NCBI GenBank assembly: GCA_025355965.1
Contig: JANXYR010000047.1
Span: forward strand, 62,001 to 126,000
Direction: 5' to 3'
Length of the DNA: 64,000 bases
Origin: Geobacteraceae bacterium
GTDB lineage: Bacteria; Desulfobacterota; Desulfuromonadia; Geobacterales; Pseudopelobacteraceae
In this document: positions 58,125-64,000 of the stretch, piece by piece
Layout: each line of letters starts with the position of its first letter
How positions within the stretch are numbered: the stretch's first letter is position 1
Made by a program: the position numbers and the translations under genes
Notes under the pieces: generated by a model
Told to the model about the DNA's origin: nothing
The model's input: only the letters and a program-made list of their open reading frames with translations
Databases searched by the model: none

Positions 58125-58520
58125 ATGCAGAGAATTATGTTGAAGAGCAAAATCCACCGGGCCACAGTTACCGGCGCTGACCTGCACTACGAAGGGAGCG
58201 TCACCATCGATCGTGATCTGATGGATGCCGCCGACATTGTTTCCTACGAGAAGGTTGCGGTCTGGAATGTAACCAATGGCAACCGTCTGGAAACTTATGC
58301 AATTGAAGGAGAACGCGGTTCAGGGGTAATATGTCTGAACGGTGCTGCAGCGCGTCTGATGGCACCCAAAGATCTTGTTATCATTGCCAGTTTTGTTAAT
58401 ATGGAAAATGCCGAAGCGATAAAATACGAGCCGAAGCTGGTGTTTGTTGATGAACAAAATTGTATGCTGCCTACGCGCAAAGAAGAGGCCGGACAGGCAA
58501 AACTGAAGTGCGTTCATTAG
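58125..58520 (+). CDS. panD: Aspartate 1-decarboxylase
   Basis: 131-residue pyruvoyl enzyme making beta-alanine from aspartate. Self-cleavage site Gly24-Ser25 is present in HYEGSVTID, as are Lys9, the Tyr58-type region [11 protein letters not shown] and the C-terminal NGAAARL with DLVIIASF. Third gene of panBCD, so the operon covers all steps from 2-oxoisovalerate and aspartate to pantothenate except ketopantoate reductase (panE), which is not here. Confidence 0.96.
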
Positions 58521-58547: not shown

Positions 58548-58580
58548 AAGAGGCTAAAACCCAGCGGTTTTTAGCCTCTT
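58548..58580. terminator. Terminator between panD and nuoL
   Basis: Stem AAGAGGCTAAAA-CC with GG-TTTTTAGCCTCTT (58548-58562 with 58566-58580, one bulge). On the minus strand TTATTTTG follows, so it most clearly ends the nuo operon just after nuoL. Confidence 0.7.
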
Positions 58581-58586
58581 AACCAT

Positions 58587-60479
58587 TCAGGTCAGCAACC
58601 AGACGGCATACCCCAGCATCGCAGCTGTTCCGGCCGCCAGGGCGATCAGCGACGTAGCCACACGTCCGGTACTCCACGCGGCGGGAAGCTCTCCCAGCCG
58701 CATCATGAAGCGTGACAGCCTGTCAAGGGTGCCGTCAATGGTGGCCTCGTCAATCCCTTTCCACAAAAAACGACTCAAGCAGACAAAGGGACGGATGAAT
58801 ATCAAACGGTAGGCATTATCCAGATACCAGCCGTCCAGCAGGAATCGGCTAAAGGGATTTCCTCTCTCTTCCCGTCTCACCGATTCTAAATAGCGCCGAC
58901 CGGTGTAGCGCGACAAAGCGAGCCCCAAACCGAGCATGCTGGCTGTGGCTGCAGTGATCTGCAGAAAGATCTCAGTTGTGTATGCCGCATGGGCTGGTGG
59001 TGCAAAACCGGGGATTTTGCCAAGAAAGCCTGACAGCAGTCCGTGCCCCCCCAAATATTCCGGAAGATTTAAAATTCCACCGAAAAGCCCAATCAAAGCC
59101 AGCGGGATGAGAGTGATGGACATGATCGGTTCGACTCTGTTTACCGGCCGGTGGCTGAGCGGCGTCGAAGTCCCACCATGAAATACTACGAACAGCATGC
59201 GAAACGTATAAAAGGAGGTCAGTAAGGCAGTTACGAGCCCAATAAAAAACAGGGTGCCGTAGAATATGCCGCCCTTTTCAAAAACCGCCCCTAGAATAGC
59301 ATCTTTGCTAAAAAAACCACCACTACCTGGAAAGCCAGCCAGGCAGAGAGTGCCGGCCAGAAACGGCCAATAAATTGCTGGCATTTCTTTTTTTAGCCCA
59401 CCCATGCGAAAGATATTTTGCTGATGATGCATGGCGGTGATAACAGATCCAGCGCCGAGGAACAGTAGCGCCTTGAAAAAAGCGTGCGTTAACAGGTGGA
59501 AGGTTGAAGCGGTTAGGGCCCCCGCCCCGACTCCGAGTACCATGTAGCCTATCTGGCTGATGGTGGAGTAGGCCAGAATGCGTTTTAGGTCGTGTTGGGC
59601 GCAAGCACATGTGGCAGCGTATAAGGCGGTTACACCGCCTGTAACTGCGATGACTGACAAGGTCAGAGGAGAGGAACCGATCAACGGGAACATGCGCGCT
59701 AACAGGTAGACCCCTGCGGTAACCATTGTTGCGGCGTGGATTTGAGCTGATACCGGTGTTGGGCCAGCCATTGCATCAGGCAGCCAGACAGAGAGCGGCA
59801 GCTGGGCTGATTTGCCAGTCGCGCCGATCAGCAGCAGAATTCCCAGAGCCGTGATGATGCTGCCAGGCATCAGTAAGCCCATGCTGTTTAAATTGGTTAT
59901 GGAGACCGTGCCGAATATCTGAAACATCCAGACCATGGCGATGCCCAGTGCGGTGTCGCCGATTCTGGTAACGATAAATGCCTTGCGCCCGGCGGTGGCG
60001 TTCTTCTCGTCCGTATACCAGAAGCCGATCAGGGCGTAGGAACAGAAGCCGACCCCTTCCCACCCCAGGTAGAGCAGTGGAAGGTTTTCGGCCAGTATCA
60101 GGGTCAGCATGGCAAAAACAAAGATGTTCAACAGGGCGAAATAGCGAGCGGGGGACCGATCATCCTTCATGTAGCCGACCGAATAGAGATGGATCAGGCC
60201 GCAGACGAAGGTGATCATCAGGGTCAGCGACAGGGACAACTGGTCCGGATACAGGGCAATGGGGGCTTTGAAATCAAAATCTGAGAGCCAGGAGGCGTAC
60301 TCGATTTTAACCGGGCCAGTGAAGTTGAGAAGGGCAAGAGAGGAACAAATAAAGGCGCACCAGATGGCAGCACAGGCCACTGTTTCCACTATGTAGCGCG
60401 GAAGTTTACGGCCGAACAGGGCGTTAAAAAGGCCACCTGAAAGTGGCAGCAGCAGTATGAGGGCGAGGTACAGTTTCAT
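58587..60479 (-). CDS. nuoL: NADH-quinone oxidoreductase subunit L
   Basis: 630-residue antiporter-like proton-pumping subunit. Seen: LYLGWEGVGFCSYALIGFWY with the TM5 glutamate, ATGKSAQLPLSVWLPDAMAGPTPVSAQIHAATMV (from about base 59840) with the TM7 lysine, and STISQIGYMVLGVG. The long C-terminal amphipathic helix region is present. It is the last gene of this operon; nuoM and nuoN, which normally follow, are replaced by a terminator and convergent panD. Confidence 0.95.
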   Translation of the reverse strand: MKLYLALILLLPLSGGLFNALFGRKLPRYIVETVACAAIWCAFICSSLALLNFTGPVKIEYASWLSDFDFKAPIALYPDQLSLSLTLMITFVCGLIHLYSVGYMKDDRSPARYFALLNIFVFAMLTLILAENLPLLYLGWEGVGFCSYALIGFWYTDEKNATAGRKAFIVTRIGDTALGIAMVWMFQIFGTVSITNLNSMGLLMPGSIITALGILLLIGATGKSAQLPLSVWLPDAMAGPTPVSAQIHAATMVTAGVYLLARMFPLIGSSPLTLSVIAVTGGVTALYAATCACAQHDLKRILAYSTISQIGYMVLGVGAGALTASTFHLLTHAFFKALLFLGAGSVITAMHHQQNIFRMGGLKKEMPAIYWPFLAGTLCLAGFPGSGGFFSKDAILGAVFEKGGIFYGTLFFIGLVTALLTSFYTFRMLFVVFHGGTSTPLSHRPVNRVEPIMSITLIPLALIGLFGGILNLPEYLGGHGLLSGFLGKIPGFAPPAHAAYTTEIFLQITAATASMLGLGLALSRYTGRRYLESVRREERGNPFSRFLLDGWYLDNAYRLIFIRPFVCLSRFLWKGIDEATIDGTLDRLSRFMMRLGELPAAWSTGRVATSLIALAAGTAAMLGYAVWLLT

Positions 60480-60480
60480 A

Positions 60481-60789
60481 TTACCCCCTCATCTCGCTGA
60501 ACATATCTGTGTTAACCGTCTTCCGTCGTCGATGCAGATATACAACCATCGCCAGTGCCAGTGACACCTCCGCAGAGGTCAGCGCCATGATGAAAACCGC
60601 GAACAGTTGGCCGTCGGGATTGCCCCATCGGGCCGAACCGGCTACAAAGACAAGCATTACGGCATTCAGCATGACTTCGATACTGACCAGCATCATGATC
60701 AAGTTGGCGCGCCAGGCTAAAAGGCCTCCCATACCGATGAAGAACAGCAGCGCGGCCAGAATCAGGATATGTTCAAGTGGGACGATCAT
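60481..60789 (-). CDS. nuoK: NADH-quinone oxidoreductase subunit K
   Basis: 102-residue three-helix membrane subunit. Seen: GMGGLLAWRANLIMMLVSIEVMLNAVML with the conserved membrane glutamate, and TSAEVSLALAMVVYLHRR with the second. Overlaps nuoJ by 4 bases. Its start codon lies 9 bases beyond the palindromic repeat that forms the nuoJ 3' end, so the ribosome binding site is affected by that element. Confidence 0.95.
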   Translation of the reverse strand: MIVPLEHILILAALLFFIGMGGLLAWRANLIMMLVSIEVMLNAVMLVFVAGSARWGNPDGQLFAVFIMALTSAEVSLALAMVVYLHRRRKTVNTDMFSEMRG

Positions 60790-61343
60790 AACGGCAACCC
60801 CTCACCCGGCCTTTGGCCACCCTCTCCCTCAGGGAGAGGGGTTGGGGGTGAGGGGGCAGGTGATTTCCCCAGGTAAAGCGCACCCACCAGGGCAAATAAT
60901 AGCTGCAGCGAAACAAGCTCTACCGCCAGACCATGCTCCTGAAACAGGTGGCGGGCAACCTCCCGGATCTGCATGGCTGCGGGGTATATGCTCGCTGTTG
61001 CTTGGCGAGAGGCAATTATGGTAACCAGCGAAGCGATGCTGACAGCCGATAGCAGCAGTGCCGGCAGCCATTCACGCCAGCCAGGCGACATTCCCTTTTC
61101 AGGGTGGCCCAGATCAAGCATCATGATCACGAACAGGAACAGTACCATGATGGCGCCAGCATAGATGATCACCTCGAATGCAGCTACCAGTGGAGCCATC
61201 AACAGGAAGAAGATGGTCGCCATGCTGAACAGGGAGGTGACCAGATACAAAATGGCGTGGACCGGGTGCTTTTCGGTGATAGCGAGAAGCGTACCGATAA
61301 CTGCGACAGCGGCCAGAATGTAGAAGATGGTTTGTTCTATCAT
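60786..61343 (-). CDS. nuoJ: NADH-quinone oxidoreductase subunit J
   Basis: 185-residue five-helix membrane subunit. Seen: [23 protein letters not shown], the conserved TM3 glycine/tyrosine [21 protein letters not shown], and the terminal helix ending [13 protein letters not shown]. The last about 22 residues are Pro/Gly/Glu-rich and derive from a palindromic repeat (60798-60855), unlike a normal NuoJ end. Overlaps nuoI by 4 bases. Confidence 0.92.
60798..60855. repeat. Compound palindromic repeat inside the 3' end of nuoJ
   Basis: Outer arms CCCCTCACCC (60798-60807) and GGGTGAGGGG (60846-60855) are exact complements. Inside lie GGCC-TTT-GGCC (60808-60818) and an 8-bp stem CCCTCTCC/GGAGAGGG (60820-60827 with 60833-60840). 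The sequence has the look of the widespread CCCTCACCCC...CTCTCCC dispersed repeats of Proteobacteria. Confidence 0.8.
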
Positions 61344-61870
61344 GGCAGCAGAGACCTGGCATCAACCGGTTTTGTTTCTTCCGTCCCGGATCCGCGTGGC
61401 TGAGATATACCAATCCCGGCGTGACGGTAGAAGTTGTAGGTTGCATCCTTACCACAGCCGTCAATCAGCAAATCTTCTTTTTCGTAGAGCAGATCCATAA
61501 TGTCCCGTTTGCAGATTTCATAGTCAGACGTCATCTGGATTGCCATGGTCGGGCATGCTTCCGCACAGAGACCGCAGAAGATGCAGCGCGAGAAGTTGAT
61601 CCTGAACCAGGCCGCATAACGGCGGCCATCCTTACTTTCGGTTGATTGCATTGAAATGCAGTCAACCGGGCAGGCAGCAGAACAGAGGTAGCAGGCAACA
61701 CAGCGCTCGCCGCCGTCCGGATCTCGCGTGAGGACTATTCGAGCCCGATAGCGGGGGTAGGGGGGGCGTTTTTCTTCCGGATACTGGATAGTTACCGGCT
61801 TGCGCAGCATGTGGGCGAGCGTGACACGAAAACCGCCCAATATAGCCTGTATGTCGGAAACTATCTGCAT
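61340..61870 (-). CDS. nuoI: NADH-quinone oxidoreductase subunit I (2x[4Fe-4S])
   Basis: 176-residue ferredoxin-like subunit passing electrons toward the quinone site. Two cluster motifs are intact: [15 protein letters not shown] and [12 protein letters not shown]. The N-terminus has [19 protein letters not shown], typical of NuoI. The start has GGAG upstream. A 74-base gap with a palindrome separates it from the ankyrin gene. Confidence 0.95.
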
Positions 61871-61891
61871 GAGTCATATACTCCGGAAACG

Positions 61892-61918
61892 CAGAGACGC
61901 CCCGCAGGAGCGTCTCTG
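61892..61918. repeat. Palindrome between the ankyrin gene and nuoI
   Basis: CAGAGACGC (61892-61900) and GCGTCTCTG (61910-61918) pair perfectly over 9 bp around a 9-base GC-rich loop. No U-tract follows on the minus strand, so it looks like a dispersed palindromic repeat rather than a terminator. Confidence 0.65.
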
Positions 61919-61944
61919 TCATCGTCAATATAGTCGCAGTCCGA

Positions 61945-62367
61945 TCAGGCGTGACCAAATTTGGCGCGTTCGGCCTTCTTTAGTAGCGCAGATGCCAGAG
62001 GGTGACAGTTATTCTCAGCATACAGGCTGGCGGTATTGCCTGCTGGAGTTTTAATAGTTGGATTTGCACCACTATCGAGAAGTGCCTGTACCGTTTTGTT
62101 GCAGCCGTAAATAGCTGCCAGCATCAGTGGCGTGTGACCTTCAAGGTCCCGAGCATTGGTATCGGCCCCTTTTTCGATCAACATTTTGGCAATTTCGGTG
62201 TGCCCGTTAGCGGCAGCATAGTGGAGCGCCGTTTTGCCTTTGTCGCTACCGGCTGTGATGTCGGCACCACGATGTAGCAGGTCCTGGACAAAATCCTTTA
62301 GCCCCTCTTTGGAAGCACTGATCAGTGGGGTGTGGCCATGACGGTCTTTTGCATTTACACTTTCCAT
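61945..62367 (-). CDS. Ankyrin repeat protein encoded inside the nuo operon
   Basis: 140 residues made almost wholly of four ankyrin repeats (HGHTPLISASKEG, GKTALHYAAANGH, EGHTPLMLAAIYG, AGNTASLYAENN). No signal peptide or membrane helix, so cytoplasmic. A strong ribosome binding site GGGAGGAG precedes the ATG. It lies in line between nuoH and nuoI, 53 bases after nuoH, and must be cotranscribed with them. Ankyrin repeats mediate protein contacts; a role in complex I assembly is conceivable but purely inferred. Confidence 0.9.
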   Translation of the reverse strand: MESVNAKDRHGHTPLISASKEGLKDFVQDLLHRGADITAGSDKGKTALHYAAANGHTEIAKMLIEKGADTNARDLEGHTPLMLAAIYGCNKTVQALLDSGANPTIKTPAGNTASLYAENNCHPLASALLKKAERAKFGHA

Positions 62368-62420
62368 GTTTTACTCCTCCCTTTTAGGTACATGATAGGG
62401 CGTAATTGCCCGTGTAAGTA

Positions 62421-63410
62421 TTACTTTAAAGCGAGCCACCAGCCGGTGGCCAGTATGTTCAGTAACGCTAGTGGCGTCAAAACTTTCCACCCCAGATGCA
62501 TCAGTTGGTCATAGCGCAGCCGAGGCAGTGTTCCTCGCATCCAGATAAAAAAGAAAGCAATAGCGAGTGTTTTTAGGGAAAACCAAACAGCTGGAGGGAA
62601 CAGTGGACCATGCCATCCCCCCAGAAAAAAAGTAGCTGCCAGTCCGCCCAGCACAACGATGTTAATGTACTCACCGACAAAAAACAAGCCAAAGCGCATG
62701 CCGGAATATTCAGTATGGAAGCCGGCTACAAGTTCCCCCTCGGCTTCGGGGAGGTCAAACGGTATACGCTTGCATTCGGCGGTAATACTGAGCAGAAAGA
62801 TGATAAACGCTAGCGGTTGGTAGACTATAAACGGCACAGATTCTTGTGCCGCAACGATATCGGTCAGATTGAACGAGTGTGACAGCATCACGATTGGAAC
62901 TAGTGAAAGTCCCATTGACAGTTCATAAGATATCAATTGCGCCAATCCGCGAATACCCCCCAACAATGCGTATTTTGAATTTGAGGCCCAGCCGCCGATC
63001 GCAACGCCATAGACAGCGATTGATGAGAGCGCCAGAAAGAAGAGTAAGCCCACGTTCAGATCGGCTACAACTAGCGGCAGGGTGCGTCCGTATATTGTCA
63101 GCGGCGCACCGAAAGGGATAACGGAAAAGATTAAAATTGCGGGTATGGCAGCCATGGCCGGAGCCAGATAAAACAACCAGCGGTCGGCGCCACTTGGAAC
63201 TACATCTTCTTTAGTGAGGAGTTTTATCAGGTCTGCCAGCGGTTGCAGCAGCCCGTAAGGGCCAACACGATTGGGTCCTTTGCGGTCCTGAACCCAGGCC
63301 AAAACTTTCCTCTCTGCGAATACCAGATAGGCGGCCAAGGTAAGGATTACAAAGAAAACCAGAGCCAGTTTGACGGCGAAAAGCGTTATGTCCAGAGTAA
63401 ATGCTGTCAT
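62421..63410 (-). CDS. nuoH: NADH-quinone oxidoreductase subunit H
   Basis: 329-residue membrane subunit forming the quinone channel. Seen: ERKVLAWVQDRKGPNRVGPYGLLQPLADLIKLL (from about base 63300), the E-rich loop TAECKRIPFDLPEAEGELVAGFHTEYSG, and WMRGTLPRLRYDQLM. The start at 63410 is preferred (MTAFTLD); the 63500 start adds an unconserved leader. It is the first gene of the operon: upstream is only the divergent engB, with no nuoA-G. Confidence 0.95.
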   Translation of the reverse strand: MTAFTLDITLFAVKLALVFFVILTLAAYLVFAERKVLAWVQDRKGPNRVGPYGLLQPLADLIKLLTKEDVVPSGADRWLFYLAPAMAAIPAILIFSVIPFGAPLTIYGRTLPLVVADLNVGLLFFLALSSIAVYGVAIGGWASNSKYALLGGIRGLAQLISYELSMGLSLVPIVMLSHSFNLTDIVAAQESVPFIVYQPLAFIIFLLSITAECKRIPFDLPEAEGELVAGFHTEYSGMRFGLFFVGEYINIVVLGGLAATFFLGGWHGPLFPPAVWFSLKTLAIAFFFIWMRGTLPRLRYDQLMHLGWKVLTPLALLNILATGWWLALK

Positions 63411-63548
63411 GGGAACCCGTTGGAAACAGGTAAGAGAAAAACACGACCGAAAACTAATAACAGCATTTTTTATATACCATAAATTAGTAGTGAACACCAC
63501 GCGCTATTTTTAAAATATTGTGAAAAATGCCAGATGAAAATTAAGCGC

Positions 63549-63578
63549 TTGAATCTAAAGGGTCCGGAACACTATAAT
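63549..63578 (+). promoter_or_regulatory. Candidate promoter for engB
   Basis: TTGAAT at 63549-63554, an 18-base spacer and a perfect TATAAT at 63573-63578, 24 bases before the engB start codon. Confidence 0.55.
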
Positions 63579-63602
63579 GCCAGCTCCAAGGAGAGCTTAT
63601 TC

Positions 63603-64000
63603 ATGAATGTATTTCAGGCTGATTTCATAAAAAGTGCTGCAAAACCGAAAGATTATCCGCCGCCAGGGCTGCCGGAGGTGGCCTTTGTAGGCCGTTCCAA
63701 TGTCGGCAAATCTTCGCTGATCAATGTGCTGTCGGGACGTAAGGGGCTGGTGCGTACCAGCTCAACCCCCGGTCGGACACAGCTGATCAATTTTTTTGAC
63801 ATTAACAGCATACTGACTCTGGTGGACCTCCCAGGTTACGGTTATGCTAAAGCTCCACCAGCGCTGCGTAAACAGTGGGGTCCGATGATCGAGGCCTATC
63901 TTGCCTCACGCGAATCTTTGAAGGCGGTAGTGCTGATCCTCGACATTCGTCGAGTGCCGTCCGACGGCGATCTACAGATGCTGCGCTGGCTCGAGATGTA
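63603..64000 (+). CDS. engB: Ribosome biogenesis GTPase EngB (YihA/YsxC), 5' part
   Basis: The first 132 codons are present; the gene runs off the window. Seen: G1 [13 protein letters not shown]2 region with [15 protein letters not shown]3 [11 protein letters not shown], and the [18 protein letters not shown] segment preceding G4. EngB is an essential GTPase for 50S subunit assembly. The start ATG at 63603 follows AAGGAGAG at ideal spacing. Divergent from nuoH. Confidence 0.94.

Follow-up and report, generated by a model that had tools for sequence, protein, structure and literature searches.

The subject of this report is the gene cluster nuoH-I-J-K-L at positions 58587-63410 of a 64,000-nucleotide stretch (the window) of the Geobacteraceae bacterium assembly GCA_025355965.1, contig JANXYR010000047.1, positions 62,001 to 126,000 (C22:62001-126000 in our numbering). 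The genome, G000, is a draft of 3.35 Mb in 86 contigs, 99.9% complete with an estimated contamination of 2.2%. With a probability of about 0.9, the cluster is the proximal membrane module of a second complex I, complete and of the NuoBCD type (nuo-2), encoded formerly by a single operon and now by four loci. The comparison with related genomes documents the gene content of the set, its orthology to the operons of relatives, sequence constraint, intermediate arrangements, joint presence and absence of the pieces, and loss at two loci, marked in the sister genome by a deletion scar. The dispersed set is gained or lost as a whole, and has been so several times in the genus.

The ancestral operon would have had the order A-BCD-E-(cytc)-F-G-H-(ank)-I-J-K-L-M-N, in which cytc and ank are a small cytochrome gene and an ankyrin-repeat gene. 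It would have been split roughly along the modules of the enzyme, into A-BCD (now on contig C60), EFG (C77), HIJKL (C22), and MN (C61). The four transcription units are predicted to be expressed together, and their products would assemble into one NADH-oxidizing, menaquinone-reducing proton pump.

The initial annotation described nuoA-G and nuoM-N as absent, which is correct for the window locus but not for the genome. A contiguous operon (nuo-1) lies on C86, where subunits B, C, and E were identified by eye from position and sequence; its NuoL is 40% identical to that of the window. Outside nuo-1 there is one further copy each of nuoA, nuoBCD, nuoE, nuoF, nuoG, nuoM, and nuoN: nuoA and a fused nuoBCD on C60, nuoE-F-G on C77, and nuoM-nuoN on C61, each piece internal to its contig with genes on both sides. 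With the window genes, all subunits are present, at separate loci on four contigs of a draft assembly, and the N module, the Q module, and the membrane arm are each represented. Because these further copies match segments of a single operon in relatives, the split-operon reading, one of two that the initial annotation had offered, is supported.

Profile matches agree with these assignments, with 1,525 bits for the C60 NuoBCD (NF009808), 193 bits for NuoE (NF005722, cut-off 141), and 484 bits for NuoG (TIGR01973, cut-off 470), and the Pfam domains of the C77 nuoE, nuoF, and nuoG products exceed their cut-offs. The B domain of NuoBCD has cysteines at positions 41, 42, 107, and 136, and by eye the cofactor and redox motif regions of the set appear intact. 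The top solved chains for NuoCD, NuoL, and NuoG are from 7awt, 3rko (3rko_L, 393 bits), and 7p63, all of which we take to be Escherichia coli complex I. Four cysteines of the NuoG motif that follows the third iron-sulfur domain align with the solved chain; the cluster at this motif is presumably the one named N7. The membrane complex encoded at a separate locus, C54:25000-37500 (L011, L012), includes a distant homologue of NuoD as well as three antiporter-like subunits, and by eye it appears to resemble hydrogenase 4 or formate hydrogenlyase.

We searched 58 genomes with NuoBCD, NuoL, NuoF, and NuoM: G000, 36 congeners, and 21 genomes of three other families. In the other families, 12 genomes (G038, G039, G041, G046-G051, G053, G055, and G057) have the single-locus order A-BCD-E-F-G-H-I-J-K-L-M-N, the G047 stretch ending just before nuoA. 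As to the remaining nine, four are cut by contig ends (G043, G044, G052, and G054), two were outside the comparison (G045 and G056), G042 has large inserts, and G037 and G040 gave no match of the nuo-2 type. The 37 genomes of the genus divide into 15 of dispersed type, 11 of one-piece type, and 11 with neither; G024 (66% complete) was counted as dispersed on NuoBCD alone, and among the one-piece genomes contig ends truncate the locus in G011, G014, and G027, and G003 is without L and M. No genome has two NuoBCD matches above 70% identity.

The dispersed type is united in all 13 gene trees (FastTree), with support of 0.90-1.00 apart from nuoJ at 0.04; the NuoBCD sequences of G019, G026, and G029 are not part of these trees, the concatenated tree, or the substitution-rate comparisons given below. 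The one-piece type found within the genus was considered as the ancestral form and rejected, since it has no ank and, in the concatenated tree, groups with another family, with G044 as sister; it looks like a later arrival. The argument for a one-operon ancestry is therefore drawn from the other families only. One such genus locus, L143 (G003:C36), has nuoK followed directly by nuoN, with nuoL and nuoM unmatched.

The gene cytc (L031:10927-11214 on C77, minus strand) lies between nuoE and nuoF and encodes 95 amino acids with one CxxCH (Cytochrome_CBB3, E = 3.4e-15). It is present at that position in 17 of the 35 genomes with both neighboring genes on one stretch: 7 of 10 dispersed genomes and 10 one-piece or cut genomes of other families. 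Likewise, ank lies between nuoH and nuoI in 10/12 one-locus genomes of other families and in 15 dispersed-type loci (11 searched genomes and 4 named records). In several carriers other genes are inserted between the nuo-2 genes: between nuoF and nuoG in L102, L106, L108, L109, L111, and L112, one example being an open reading frame (ORF) of 265-268 amino acids that is hydrolase-like by eye, and between nuoK and nuoL in L117, L123, L124, and L127.

The pieces of the dispersed set come and go together. In 35 of the 37 genus genomes, those placed in a nine-gene tree (G024 and G034, for which no long mfd was available, were left out), NuoBCD, F, L, and M occur as a full group or not at all, except in G002 (76% complete), where F and M were not found; the drafts G002, G024, and G034 are the exceptions to this pattern of joint inheritance. 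On this tree the carrier state needs 8 changes, at least 5 of them on well-supported branches. The approximately unbiased test rejects the carriers as one clade (p = 3.8e-10) and the noncarriers as one clade (p = 2.8e-59). In five independent pairs of genomes, NuoBCD tracks NuoL in 5/5 and NuoF and NuoM in 4-5/5 (the exception being G002), with the presence of BCD, F, and M taken from the 58-genome protein search. The tree is a quick one: its support values come only from the Shimodaira-Hasegawa-like approximate likelihood ratio test, many of its forks are open, and the outgroup genome G039 drew a long-branch warning. Some of its markers are genes next to the nuo loci and are thus not independent of local recombination. 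We read the direction of change as loss because of a scar in G015 and the gene order of the outgroups.

The loss sites were surveyed near engB, cbiX, and mfd in genomes without the dispersed set. At the engB site, ank stands alone in all 20 genomes examined (20 of the 22 without the dispersed set; 10 have no nuo-2 at all and 10 the one-piece type). This lone ank is 82-94% identical to that of the window, and no nuo match was found at the site in these 20 genomes. The pan genes follow beyond it in 17/20, seven of them recognized through panC or panB with panD unmatched; of the exceptions, G022 is cut by a contig end, and G008 and G009 differ. At the cbiX site, in a different set of 20 genomes (11 without any nuo-2 and 9 one-piece), cytc stands alone in 14, of which 8 are without any nuo-2; this is not the case in G025, G008, G014, G009, and G011, and G022 is cut. 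Some of these loci have other genes between the lone cytc and hemW. Two candidates were not counted: a "cytochrome" in G005, where a chance CxxCH lies in a protein of another kind, and a weak match in G011, which is a different cytochrome. At the third site, carrier G017 has nuoM-nuoN between mfd and DUF4337, and these two flanking genes are direct neighbors in 5 of 22 genomes without the set (G018, G032, G007, G033, and G022); the other 17 mfd stretches have different neighbors or end there.

The most direct record of deletion is that of G015, the sister of G000 (support of 1.00 and 100 in two trees). At its cytc locus the nuoE promoter leads into about nine nuoE-like codons, which are soon closed by a stop ahead of cytc, and at its ank locus a near copy of the nuoH promoter element (TATGGTATATA in the window) runs into the leader of the lone ank. 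G006 has also kept the nuoE promoter. Outside these two genomes, loss is deduced from the ank and cytc left stranded, from the gene order in the outgroups, and from the tree. A nucleotide search of 80 loci (L213-L292, the carriers' mfd loci included) gave a real nuoM in carriers G028 and G029 only; the G015 nuoE remnant, too short for that search, was spotted by eye. Lone and operon copies of ank are interspersed in the ank tree, and the lone copies of both ank and cytc remain constrained. The ratio of nonsynonymous to synonymous substitution rates (dN/dS) of lone ank is 0.012-0.135 in six pairs (0.040 for G015 versus G000), and that of lone cytc is 0.033-0.216 in four pairs (0.095 for G015 versus G000, with dS saturated). 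Neither gene is confined to genomes with this complex I, and those with lone copies may still have nuo-1.

Several genomes have intermediate arrangements. G001 has A-BCD, FG, and H-I-J-K-L-M-N, the last in one piece from H to N, and Pelotalea chapellei DSM 13688, a cultured relative, and three other named records have H-ank-I-J-K-L-M-N beside engB. In G005 an inverted block M-N-c16-c5 adjoins nuoL, N and L being about 6.6 kb apart; c5 encodes a menaquinone biosynthesis protein (PF02621, in the G000 copy). In G035 and G010, M-N has the inverted sense of G005, at distances from nuoL of about 20 and 36 kb, respectively. In G000 and others, M-N is on another contig, a few kilobases from c5 and with mfd near, and panDCB adjoins nuoL. 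These arrangements fit an inversion that had one of its ends between nuoL and nuoM and was succeeded by additional moves. G021, with M-N-L on one strand, is less easily accommodated. The nuo-1 operon served as a control: its D-to-M distance is 10.5-10.9 kb in 10 of 15 carriers, and in the other five these genes are on different contigs or were not both found. Menaquinone genes flank the H-to-N piece in L159, L163, and L124, with c5 beyond nuoN and c9, presumably also a menaquinone biosynthesis gene, beyond engB. The neighbor names engB, hemW, sixA, murA, mfd, dtd, and others are in part putative; Pfam backs DUF4337, CbiC, CbiD, panD, c5, and the cytochrome.

The dispersed nuo-2 genes are under purifying selection and are not decaying. 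Their dN/dS is 0.024-0.295 for the 12 nuo genes and ank in six carrier pairs, similar to the 0.023-0.221 of four one-piece pairs; some pairs do not cover every gene, and dS is high in some. NuoBCD of G019, G026, and G029 has an in-frame stop at codon 5, which is upstream of the likely start, so these genes are not broken.

Promoter-like sites precede two of the pieces. A -35/-10-like pair lies before nuoA in all 13 carriers with the start covered and before nuoE in 10/10, with a spacer of 16-17 bases (by eye, in a few rows), ending 6-8 bases before the ATG. Since the sites are so near the start codon, the nuoA and nuoE mRNAs may be leaderless. A site of this kind occurs at 4 of 159 ORFs of at least 150 amino acids taken from stretches of G000, nuoE included (nuoA is too short to qualify, and ORFs shared by the window and L033, which overlap, were counted twice). 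No pair of this type was seen in the one-piece genomes, except that in G044 a TACAAT precedes nuoA by six bases. The nuoA and nuoE sites are alike, the nuoH site is different, and nuoM is without a conserved one; by eye, no motif or operator common to all four pieces was seen among the upstream rows listed. In Geobacter, HgtR is a candidate regulator of nuo.

A number of points weigh against the reading of a dispersed complex I lost repeatedly as a unit. The C77 NuoF scores 535 bits with TIGR01959, slightly below the curated cut-off of 559. The drafts miss pieces, G024 having BCD only and G034 no M. The carrier label is somewhat clustered on the tree, the 8 changes comparing with a shuffled mean of 11.1 and being matched or undercut in 10 of 500 shuffles. 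The sign test gives p = 0.0625 for BCD and 0.0625-0.125 for F and M, and five pairs cannot reach 0.05. Interspecies recombination could have spread an emptied locus, inflating the loss count, and the loss survey covers the sites of HIJKL, EFG, and MN. Finally, G021 has the order M-N-L on one strand in a covered stretch without H-K, and the stretches covered in G001 and G021 are without nuoE.

The initial annotation had also proposed that nuoHIJKL forms an alternative membrane module with different partners; a hydrogenase or formate dehydrogenase would be examples. The cluster does stand alone between engB and panD with a promoter-like element of its own, and the C54 locus, with its antiporter-like subunits and distant NuoD homologue, is a separate one. 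However, the C54 locus already has three antiporter-like subunits, the genome holds a cognate copy of each missing subunit, and the pieces match one operon in relatives and appear and vanish together; other partners are not needed, and we consider this proposal very unlikely. It is about as improbable that the cluster is a decaying paralogue, redundant beside the contiguous nuo-1, which is how the initial annotation would have understood it had a complete second operon been accompanied by a lack of expression of this one. That second operon is indeed there, on C86, and relatives have repeatedly lost the nuo-2 set, but the carrier genes are open and constrained with their redox motifs intact, conserved promoter-like sites precede nuoA and nuoE, and where the set has been lost little sequence remains.

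An artefact, with contigs wrongly broken or joined or the set derived from another organism, would be conceivable in a draft of 86 contigs with some estimated contamination, yet it is the least credible of the explanations considered. The order engB-H-ank-I-J-K-L-pan is found on one stretch in G000, G028, G035, G017, G019, and G029, some of these six stretches holding extra inserted genes; each G000 piece is bounded by other genes within its contig; nuo-1 of the same genomes keeps its spacing in 10 of 15 carriers; and many relatives have nuo-1 and the dispersed set together.

The five window genes have the names given in the initial annotation, whose coordinates for the cluster are exact; all are open, and NCBIfam and Pfam agree on them. 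All lie on the minus strand: nuoH (62421-63410; Q-module membrane anchor; PF00146, 424 bits), nuoI (61340-61870; NF004536, 281 bits; two 4Fe-4S motifs CxxCxxCxxxCP), nuoJ (60786-61343; PF00499, 118 bits), nuoK (60481-60789; NF004319, 103 bits), and nuoL (58587-60479; antiporter-like proton pump subunit; TIGR01974, 633 bits). A sixth gene overlooked in the initial annotation, ank (61945-62367, minus strand; 140 amino acids; Ank_2, E = 2.5e-30), lies in the gap between nuoH and nuoI. The nuoH start at 63410 is the ATG common to the aligned carriers; the listed ORF also has a GTG upstream. The C-terminal tail of NuoJ is of low complexity in this genome. At the 3' end of its gene (60786-60870) this tail is rich in P, E, and G and differs from one relative to another, giving the impression that a dispersed repeat has extended into the end of the gene.

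The setting is likewise as first described. Upstream, a plus-strand GTPase gene by Pfam, which begins at 63534 and continues past the window end (63534-64000), diverges from nuoH; following the initial annotation, we take it to be engB. Downstream and outside the system, panD (58125-58520, plus strand; Asp_decarbox) converges on nuoL. The conserved TATGGTATATA element upstream of nuoH (63471-63481, minus strand, hand-counted) is a probable -10 region. As to the terminator reported to face panD, a strong hairpin (-22.9 kcal/mol, z = -3.9) lies after nuoL, between the two convergent genes (58548-58580, minus strand, hand-counted), but is not among the sites of a simple terminator scan of the window. 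That scan gave 8 terminator-like sites, compared to 5.7 in shuffles, and a promoter scan of the window gave 5 sites, compared to 4.7, without excess.

The enzyme is an ordinary one; its gene arrangement is unusual and informative. Whether operons hold together or break up has long been debated, mostly on evidence from distant genomes, and here one genus and its one-piece sister families offer intermediates, losses, replacements, and a deletion scar for one large enzyme. A tentative and rather doubtful extension is that breakage near the module borders, with own promoters for the soluble parts, made the arms separately tunable, and that selection repeatedly removed the enzyme as a unit, in some lineages exchanging it for a horizontally acquired one-piece operon, while ank and cytc, retained for functions of their own, mark the emptied sites. 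Separate promoters for each piece, co-expression of the pieces, and roles of ank and cytc independent of this complex I are predicted.

Split complex I sets are already known; what is new is the documentation of how the set broke up, was lost jointly, and left passengers stranded. In cyanobacteria the genes of the NDH-1 (ndh) subunits are generally spread over several small clusters on the chromosome, whereas the dispersal described here occurred within one genus and the one-piece form persists in sister families. The set differs from E. coli NDH-1 in the fusion of B to CD, in a NuoG shorter by about 300 residues, and in the dispersal of the genes. Among the literature matches listed (titles and abstract openings, with few subscription papers covered), none reported a dispersed complex I in Geobacterales or a stranded ank or cytochrome. 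The published accounts cited below are compared as far as their excerpts go. The NuoBCD fusion is shared with Desulfococcus multivorans, where the genes form a single cluster rather than a dispersed set (PMC5109826). A complex I cluster without EFG, with EFG-like genes elsewhere, has been described (PMC12142623), and two complex I isozymes of one bacterium differ in role (PMC4859585). Excerpts of PMC3543383 and PMC3879981 contribute nothing further to this comparison. In the Geobacteraceae, two complexes have been called ancestral, and Pelobacter carbinolicus lost a whole 14-gene complex (PMC2923632); the excerpted account has no dispersed set, whereas here several separate loci were removed. 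Chloroflexus aurantiacus offers a parallel: next to a complete nuoA-N cluster it has a second set that is loosely arranged, with nuoE and nuoF 800 genes apart (PMC3150298). According to the excerpt, nuoG is missing and nuoM doubled in that set, whereas here each subunit occurs once, the cuts lie near module borders, and both intermediates and joint losses are observed.

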